Assembly (NCBI GenBank): GCA_009917445.1
Contig: QZEE01000006.1
Coordinates: 62,001 to 126,000 of the forward strand
Source of the DNA: a bacterium D16-76
GTDB lineage: Bacteria > Bacillota > Clostridia > Oscillospirales > Acutalibacteraceae
Length of the DNA stretch: 64,000 nt
Reading direction: 5' to 3'
Made by a program: the position numbers and the translations under genes. This document shows, in pieces, positions 32,100-53,038 of the stretch. Within the stretch, counting starts at the first letter, position 1. The number at the start of each line of letters is the position of its first letter. Under the pieces are notes generated by a model. The model was not told the DNA's origin, did no database searches, and worked only from the letters and a program-made list of their open reading frames with translations.

Positions 32100-32345
32100 A
32101 CGTCTTCGGCCACAGCAAAAACATTTATTTCTGAATTTTTTGCCCAGCTTTAAACCACCGCCCCGCCCAGGCAAGAAGACCTTGGGGCCTTGCCCCAAAC
32201 CCCTTGCTGACGCTTTTGTGGCCTTCGGCAAGACCGTCTCCGACGGCTCAGGGGCTCCGCCCCCAAGGCCCCCGCCAGGGGAAGGGTTCCCCTGGACCCC
32301 AACGCCTGGCCCTCTGGCACGATTTTTGAAAACAGACACCCCATA
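32100..32345. repeat. GC-rich intergenic repeat with tandem hairpins
   Basis: The divergent gap before pdaA holds several perfect short hairpins in a row: TTGGGGC-CTT-GCCCCAA (32182-32198), GGGGC-TCC-GCCCC (32251-32263) and CCAGGGGAA-GGG-TTCCCCTGG (32275-32295), plus ACCGTC/GACGGC. On the minus strand it reads TTGGGGTCCAGGGG…CCCCTGGC and later GACGGTCTTGCCG, which matches the repeat after ftsQ. No coding sequence is supported here and no clear plus-strand promoter for pdaA was seen. Confidence 0.6.
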
Positions 32346-50752: not shown

Positions 50753-51187
50753 ATGGCCCAAACGTTTTATACCGATTCCCCCGAGGCCACCCAGGCCCTG
50801 GCCGCCCGCCTGGCCCCCCAGCTGCGGGGCGGTGAGGTGCTGGCCTTTACCGGCGGTATGGGTATGGGCAAAACCGCCTTTACCCGGGGCCTTGCCGCCG
50901 CCCTGGGGGCCGGGGACGTGGTGCAGAGCCCCACTTTTGCCCTGGTAAACGAATACACGGGCCGGCTGACCATCGAGCACTTTGACATGTACCGCGTCGA
51001 GACCTGGGAGGACCTGTACTCCACCGGCTTTTTCGACTACCTGGGTACAAACCGGGTGCTGGTCATTGAGTGGAGCGAAAATATTGATGGCGCCCTGCCG
51101 GAAGATACCGTCTATATCCACATCGCCCCCGGCGGTTCCGAATCCCAAAGGCGCATCACCATAGAAGGCTGGAAAGGGGAAATATAG
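50753..51187 (+). CDS. tsaE: tRNA threonylcarbamoyladenosine biosynthesis ATPase TsaE
   Basis: TsaE is the ATPase that, with TsaB and TsaD, puts threonylcarbamoyl on A37 of ANN-decoding tRNAs. The 144-residue protein has Walker A GGMGMGKTAFTRG near residue 39, SPTFALVNEY and the FDMYRVETWEDL segment, all typical. It begins three bases after the fhs stop and ends two bases before tsaB, so all are on one transcript. Confidence 0.95.
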   Translation: MAQTFYTDSPEATQALAARLAPQLRGGEVLAFTGGMGMGKTAFTRGLAAALGAGDVVQSPTFALVNEYTGRLTIEHFDMYRVETWEDLYSTGFFDYLGTNRVLVIEWSENIDGALPEDTVYIHIAPGGSESQRRITIEGWKGEI

Positions 51188-51189
51188 CT

Positions 51190-52350
51190 ATGCTGGTTTT
51201 AGGGATCGAGTCCTCGGCCACAGCGGCCTCCGTGGCGGTGGTAGAGGGGGAAAAGCTCCTGGGGCAATACTACTGCAACACCGCCATGACTCACAGCCAG
51301 ACCCTGCTGCCCATGGCCGAAGCCCTTGTCCAATCCCTGGGGAAAACCTGGGCCGATTTCGGCCTGCTGGCAGTTTCCGCAGGGCCCGGGTCTTTTACCG
51401 GGGTGCGCATCGGGGTGTCATGTGTAAAGGGCATAGCCTTTGCGCATAATATCCCTTGCTGCGGCGTTTCCACTTTAGAAGCCATTGCCTACAACGGCCT
51501 TGCCTGCGAAGGCAGCATCCTCTGCGCCGTTATGGACGCCCGGTGCGGGCAGGTCTACAACGCCCTGTTCCAAGTAGAAAAAGGGGCCCTCCGGCGCTTA
51601 ACAGAGGACCGGGCCCTGGCCATAGAAGCCCTGGGGGAAGAGTGTAAAGCCCATAGCCCTCACATCATGCTGTTGGGGGACGGCGCGGCCCTGTGCCACC
51701 AGGCCTTTTCAAGCTGGGGCGCACGCCTGGCGCCAGAAACCCAAAGGTTCCAGCAGGCGGCCAGCGTAGCCTTTATCGGGCAGCAGAGGGCTCAGCAGGG
51801 CCTGGCTGTCCCGGCCGCAGAGCTGCTGCCTGCCTACCTGCGCCTGCCCCAAGCAGAGCGGGAATTGAAACGAAAAAAGGAAAAGGAAGGGAAGGGAATT
51901 GAAATGAGAGTAGCGCTTGGCTGTGACCACGGCGGCTTCCAGCTGAAAGAAGCCGTAAAGCAATACCTGACAGAAAAAGGCGTCCTCTGTGAAGATTTCG
52001 GCACCCACAGCACCGAATCCGTAGATTACGCGCCCATTGCCGCCAAAGCCGCCCGCTGCGTAGCCCAGGGCAAGGCCGATTTCGGCATACTTGTCTGTTC
52101 CACCGGCATCGGCATTTCCATGGCCGCCAACAAGGTAAAGGGCATCCGGGCGGCGGTGTGTACCGACGCCCACTGCGCGGAAATGACCCGCCGCCACAAC
52201 AACGCCAATGTGCTGTGCATGGGCGGCCACGTGGTTGACAAGCAAACCGCTTTACAACTCGTAGACATTTTCCTGGAAACCGGCTTTGAAGGCGGTCGCC
52301 ACCAGCGCCGCATCGATCAGATTGCACAAATCGAAGAAGGAACCTTGTGA
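51190..52350 (+). CDS. tsaB: Fused reading frame TsaB - ribose-5-phosphate isomerase B
   Basis: One 386-codon frame joins two normally separate proteins. Residues 1-226 are TsaB, the dimerisation and scaffold subunit of the t6A tRNA-modification complex ([17 protein letters not shown] at the start, [25 protein letters not shown] at the end). Residues 227-238 are a Lys-rich linker ([12 protein letters not shown]). Residues 239-386 are a complete RpiB. No stop codon lies between, whereas TsaB normally ends here. The linker DNA contains an AAGGAAGGGAAGGG ribosome site, so a separate RpiB could also be made from the ATG at 51904. Whether the fusion protein accumulates is unknown. Confidence 0.85.
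51904..52350 (+). CDS. rpiB: Ribose-5-phosphate isomerase B, possible internal start within the tsaB frame
   Basis: RpiB interconverts ribose 5-phosphate and ribulose 5-phosphate. The 148-residue unit from ATG 51904 begins [19 protein letters not shown] as free RpiB proteins do, has the active-site Cys in [14 protein letters not shown] and the [13 protein letters not shown] motif, and ends [12 protein letters not shown] strong purine ribosome site lies 5-15 bases upstream inside the linker codons, so this may be the main product of the distal half. Next gene: upp, 46 bases on, linking ribose phosphate to PRPP-dependent salvage. Confidence 0.8.
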
Positions 52351-52396: not shown

Positions 52397-53038
52397 ATGA
52401 AAAAACTGCATGAAAACGTATTTGTCATGGACCATCCCCTGATCCAGCACAAGCTAACCTTTTTGCGCAGCAAAGACACGGGTACAAAAGAATTCCGTGA
52501 GCTTGTCAGCGAGATCGCCAACCTGATGTGCTACGAGGCCACCCGGGACCTGCCCCTAATGGACGTGGAGACCGAGACCCCCATGGAAAAAACCACCACC
52601 CAGGTCATTGCCGGCCGCAAGCTGGCCTTTGTGCCCATCCTGCGGGCAGGCCTGGGCATGGTTGACGGCATGCTGCGCCTGGTGCCCTCGGCCAAAGTGG
52701 GGCACATCGGCCTGTACCGGGACCACGACACCCTAAAGCCCGTAGAATATTACAACAAGCTGCCCCAGGACATCACCGAGCGTGACGTCATCGTCCTAGA
52801 CCCCATGCTGGCTACCGGCGGCTCGGCTATGGATGCCATCACCATCGTCAAGCGCAGCGCCCCCAAAAGCGTGAAGTTCCTGTGCGTCATCGCCGCCCCC
52901 GAGGGCATTGAGGCCCTGCGCCAAGCCCACCCCGATGTGCAGATTTACTGTGCCGCCGTAGACCGGAAGCTCAACGAGAACGGCTACATTCTGCCGGGCC
53001 TGGGGGACGCGGGGGACCGCATTTTCGGCACCATCTAA
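52397..53038 (+). CDS. upp: Uracil phosphoribosyltransferase
   Basis: Upp salvages uracil to UMP with PRPP. The 213-residue protein has typical length, with [16 protein letters not shown] at the N-terminus, the PRPP-binding loop [14 protein letters not shown] near residue 135, and the uracil-binding end [17 protein letters not shown]. An in-frame upstream start would overlap rpiB; the ATG at 52397 follows CGGAGGAG. Confidence 0.96.

Follow-up and report, generated by a model that had tools for sequence, protein, structure and literature searches.

A tsaB-rpiB fusion found in a single genome, probably a recent accident that joined two operon neighbours

RpiB is found joined to other protein domains elsewhere in the Bacillota. 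We scanned nine long RpiB frames, picked for length from 19 and read from stop to stop. Five of the nine were LMWPc-RpiB fusions (L229, L233, L239, L241, and L242) and four were RpiB-DUF436 fusions (L228, L231, L232, and L236). Hence, since RpiB has been joined to either LMW-phosphatase or DUF436 domains, such fusion events are not unusual. Among ten further RpiB frames, the stretches upstream of RpiB in L243-L246 do not look like a domain. Gene pairs with overlapping ends are typically coupled by termination-reinitiation, as set out in excerpts from two sources (PMC6728339; PMC10666635). Frame-changing insertions and deletions between adjacent genes are treated in general terms in part of a further source (PMC3711429). 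Here, we describe a locus where tsaB and rpiB, which are separate neighbours in relatives, share one reading frame.

The locus lies in the window, by which we mean the whole 64,000-nucleotide stretch of DNA that was analysed. This is part of contig C116 in a genome, G000, of 3.78 Mb and 148 contigs. On the forward strand, the fused frame (51190-52350) runs for 386 codons from the ATG at 51190 to the stop at 52348-52350, with no interruption. The 386-residue product has a predicted mass of 41.0 kDa. The TsaB part spans residues 1-218 (51190-51843, + strand), where model TIGR03725 matches residues 3-218 with 158.3 bits, compared to a curated NCBIfam cut-off of 69.3. The sequence GPGXXTGXR, named as a TsaB motif in PMC9654439, is present as GPGSFTGVR at residues 65-73. 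The RpiB part (51904-52350, + strand) has its own ATG, at 51904-51906, in the same place as the RpiB start in relatives. Here, TIGR01120 matches residues 240-382 with 185.3 bits, against a curated cut-off of 138.65. If initiated internally, this part would yield a protein of 148 residues and 15.9 kDa. Pfam is concordant, placing the TsaD family on the TsaB part and LacAB_rpiB on the RpiB part. Similarly, solved TsaB and RpiB structures each match their own half of the fused protein, separately, and the best-matching solved RpiB spans residues 235-383. With 386 open codons, and both domains above curated cut-offs, the single frame from TsaB start to RpiB stop reported in a preliminary description is upheld. 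The masses given there, about 41 and 16 kDa, agree with those computed for the fusion and free RpiB.

Between the two domain models are 20 residues (219-238; 51844-51903, + strand) that belong to neither. Comparison with the TsaB tail of a close relative, G010, identifies these as conserved TsaB tail followed, from about residue 235, by residues created by a frame shift. Because LPQAEREL (residues 219-226) is part of the conserved tail, the linker itself consists of residues 227-238; this is the 12-residue linker noted previously. At each of the 112 columns conserved in at least 85% of 39 relatives, the fused protein has the common residue. For the RpiB part, there are no deviations at 53 columns conserved in at least 85% of the 39. 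When the window is compared with G010, dN is 0.13 for tsaB and 0.09 for rpiB, and dS is near 1.0. Note that these values span the whole time since the split from G010 and are silent on the time after fusion.

The genes either side of the fused frame are those found in relatives. Upstream is tsaE (50753-51187, + strand; Pfam TsaE, 127.2 bits) and downstream is upp (52397-53038, + strand; Pfam UPRTase, 271.9 bits). Of 28 other genomes in the genus, 25 have adjacent, separate tsaB and rpiB genes, and the order is always tsaE-tsaB-rpiB-upp, with tsaE upstream and upp downstream at 25 of 25 loci. The genomes lacking the pair (G002, G013, and G024) are 60-87% complete. At 17 of the 25 loci, the tsaB stop and rpiB start overlap by 4 nt; in total, 21 have the two within 4 nt (gaps of -4, -1, +1, and +2). 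The remaining four have gaps of 26, 36, 38, and 234 nt. From the gene order and overlaps in relatives, we conclude that the operon link between rpiB and tsaB is older than the fusion. Hence, the proposal that fusing ties isomerase dosage to tRNA modification is not supported, since the separate genes of relatives already share an operon (25 of 25) and 17 pairs overlap by 4 nt. In a group of seven loci (L038, L046, L047, L058, L123, L126, and L142) tsaB and rpiB are in the same frame, 0 or 3 nt apart, with one stop codon. Loss of this one stop would therefore fuse the two genes. The tsaB-rpiB junctions of L046 and L126 are identical.

To determine how widespread the fusion is, two sets of loci were parsed. 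In the first, where some genomes are represented more than once, 113 of 117 loci have the tsaB-rpiB pair, and one of the 113, that of the window, is fused. In the second, which shares one locus with the first, the pair is present at 39 of 40 loci and none of the 39 is fused. Across 29 genomes of the genus, including that of the window, no joint TsaB-RpiB match without a stop was found besides the window. Likewise, there was no second unbroken joint match among the matches listed for 99 relatives, 398 family, 394 order, and 199 phylum genomes, noting that these sets, and that of the genus, overlap and each include G000. Fusions that score weakly, or have a long linker, could exist beyond the matches listed. 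An established fusion would be expected in more than one species; only G000 carries this one among the loci parsed and matches listed. The same window-only occurrence answers an earlier call to check for conservation in related genomes, and rules out the fusion as a conserved feature of the loci parsed and matches listed. Other candidates were rejected. In G020, the two parts were listed with a 493-residue frame, giving the look of a second fusion, but TsaB there ends at a stop and 234 bp separate it from rpiB. None of G048, G373, G281, G290, G104, G098, G096, G457, G427, G416, G045, and G101, which had long frames or joint matches, is fused. In G094, the stretch examined has no tsaB-rpiB pair. 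A TsaB-RpiB fusion was not found in the literature searched, where one paper, on Listeria, has both proteins, but may nonetheless be in print. The G020 spacer (L016) belongs to a repeat rich in hairpins, of which both G020 and G000 carry many partial copies. There are at least 44 matches in each genome, counted from 40 scored candidates of 253 and 111, respectively. In G000 these are on many contigs; the window contains only a 27-bp piece, at 32176-32202.

The junction was compared with those of two close relatives, G005 and G010. The latter, Neglectibacter sp. X58, is the nearest named relative among the loci compared. The tsaB product of G010 ends KRKKEKEGN, and that of G005 KRKKESEGN; in both, a single base separates the TGA stop from the rpiB start. 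The TsaB tails of both agree with the window up to the point of the shift, and alignment shows that the window junction is exactly 5 bases longer than either. This corresponds to a period-5 tract, GGAAGGGAAGGGAA, at 51885-51898 (+ strand), with AAGGG copies at 51887-51891 and 51892-51896 that we interpret as a 5-bp tandem duplication. If one AAGGG unit is removed, the window frame would end KRKKEKEGN and then stop, identical to G010. The old tsaB stop can still be seen as a TGA at 51900-51902 (+ strand), now out of frame, at the position where G010 and G005 have theirs in frame. Period-5 tracts of at least 14 nt are rare; they occur three times in 139 kb, one being the tsaB-rpiB junction, and 0-2 times in ten resampled controls. 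No such tract was found at the junction in 24 genus relatives; in one of them, a different unit forms an 11-nt tract. Judged from the alignment, a 5-bp tandem duplication would be the simplest account of the junction. Briefly, tsaB has a purine-rich end, and duplication of AAGGG there would shift the frame by two. The TGA, one base ahead of the rpiB start, would no longer be in frame, and the tsaB frame would run on into rpiB, directly downstream in the conserved operon. Such an event was presumably recent, near neutral, and specific to the species or strain.

The sequence before rpiB is also a potential ribosome binding site. The segment AAGGAAGGGAAGGG, at 51883-51896, precedes ATG 51904-51906, and the site predicted at 51884-51896 (+ strand) has a pairing energy of -12.7 kcal/mol and a 7-nt spacer. 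Of the 789 ATGs that the + strand of the window contains, 1.1%, the rpiB ATG among them, have a score this low or lower. For these energies, we used what we take to be the 16S 3' end; the sequence, GGATCACCTCCTTTCT, occurs once in the genome of the window. At all 26 genus junctions scored, including that of the window, the 16S tail is predicted to pair ahead of rpiB (-9.2 to -16.4 kcal/mol). Hence, because a site is predicted ahead of rpiB in all 25 genus relatives with the pair, that inside the fused gene is an inherited rpiB signal. Predicted mRNA structure around the rpiB start is weakest in the window, at -15.3 kcal/mol, compared with -15.5 to -33.2 kcal/mol in 13 relatives folded of the 25. 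By sequence criteria, the ribosome site noticed previously, right before the RpiB ATG, is indeed strong. Together with the continuous frame, this fits the earlier expectation that a fusion, free RpiB from internal initiation, or both, could be made. Elongating ribosomes would cross the junction, so that most ribosomes on tsaB would now yield the 41.0-kDa TsaB-RpiB fusion. Meanwhile, 30S subunits should still be able to bind 51884-51896 and start some free RpiB at 51904. The likely products are thus the 41-kDa fusion and some free 16-kDa RpiB, and both domains presumably still work.

We next consider whether the extra 5 bases could be spurious, with the cell having separate genes. The claim of fusion relates to one strain and one assembly, in 148 contigs, and separate genes are the rule in the relatives examined; both points are compatible with a sequencing or assembly error. 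However, the usual sequencing error is a single base in a homopolymer, and here a complete 5-base unit is duplicated. The G000 assembly is also 99.98% complete, with 0.2% contamination. Furthermore, when 74 gene-like segments shared with G010 were compared, with frames chosen by bit score, a frame of G000 spanned two or more of G010 in only two cases. These were tsaB-rpiB and C116:77782-78828; the two G010 partners of the latter are themselves overlapping and resemble shadow frames. A cruder scan against G010 gave five possible frame changes on C116, two being the tsaB-rpiB junction, once as an antisense shadow. Outside the window, C116:60541-61507 and the opposite-strand frame pair C116:133456-134139 are possible frame changes that may be shadow frames. 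We judge error unlikely and put the chance that the fusion is real at about four in five.

If the fusion is real, its effect on TsaB matters. The C-terminal tail of TsaB contacts TsaD in solved complexes, according to PMC9654439, and the G000 genome has one TsaB match above the cut-off, that of the fused frame; a second, on C148, is below it. Hence, the cell must either tolerate the fusion, cut it, or bypass it. From an extract of PMC10792529, a bulky C-terminal extension on a single-copy TsaB might be expected to be harmful, and this counts against the explanation we favour. The RpiB activity of the cell may not depend on the fused gene alone, given a second full-length RpiB-family gene on contig C99 (L002:1429-1938; Pfam) and a partial match on C33. 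By eye, the C99 gene adjoins a candidate sugar-phosphate cytidylyltransferase gene, perhaps in a surface-polymer cluster. One means of bypass would be -1 frameshifting at an in-frame A_AAA_AAG heptamer (51873-51879, + strand), which we assume to be slippery. Free TsaB would still be made, since the -1 frame ends at the relict TGA, 51900-51902, next to the rpiB start. Yet the heptamer occurs 11 times in the 42,421 codons of 123 gene-like ORFs of C116, and one is likely in a tail so rich in lysine. Hence, the heptamer is not rare enough to be more than weak evidence, and we consider frameshifting very improbable. Another reading is that the fusion is a selected bifunctional protein, in which RpiB, as an oligomer, holds TsaB-TsaD complexes together or ties the supply of ribose phosphate to tRNA modification. 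The RpiB fusions in other Bacillota, and the conserved tsaB-rpiB neighbourhood, are in keeping with this. Conversely, the fusion was seen in one genome alone, the relict stop is intact, and both linker and junction have the look of a frame shift that has not since been edited; selection for two functions is improbable. The AAGGG copy number could instead be a slippage register, switching between separate and fused products, in which case strains would carry mixed states. One copy is computed to give TGA-A-ATG, two the fusion, and three an ATGA overlap. We rate such switching as a very slim chance. Our favoured explanation, with a probability of roughly two in three, is that AAGGG duplication caused a recent, single-lineage escape from the tsaB stop, fusing operon neighbours, with the fusion mostly made, some free RpiB, and both domains working. 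The fused protein then probably arose by chance, recently and in one lineage, and would not be an established two-in-one enzyme.

The locus provides a natural test of whether TsaB can function with a partner at its C-terminus, and of the amount of internal initiation that remains. Alone, the fusion is no pointer to a new link between pentose phosphate and tRNA modification. In comparison with known systems, it can be grouped with the known cases where a lost stop has joined neighbours in an operon, and lies outside any established fusion family. Like the LMWPc-RpiB proteins, it has RpiB in one frame behind another domain and a linker, whereas the N-terminal partner differs, and those fusions, in five genomes, are apparently established. 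The RpiB-DUF436 proteins likewise combine RpiB and a second domain in one frame, but there RpiB is N-terminal. What is new is a different RpiB partner, TsaB, in one genome. The parental junction of the genus, with a 4-nt overlap at 17 of 25 loci and TGA-N-ATG/TTG in G005 and G010, resembles the overlapping, or nearly overlapping, coupled pairs described in the excerpts of PMC6728339 and PMC10666635. The window differs from termination-reinitiation pairs in that its tsaB frame has no stop. Hence, ribosomes would read through, perhaps with new initiation, in place of reinitiating. The locus thus illustrates that one minor change can be enough to merge a nearly overlapping, and probably translationally coupled, pair of genes, leaving the former stop in view and the former ribosome site inside the merged gene.
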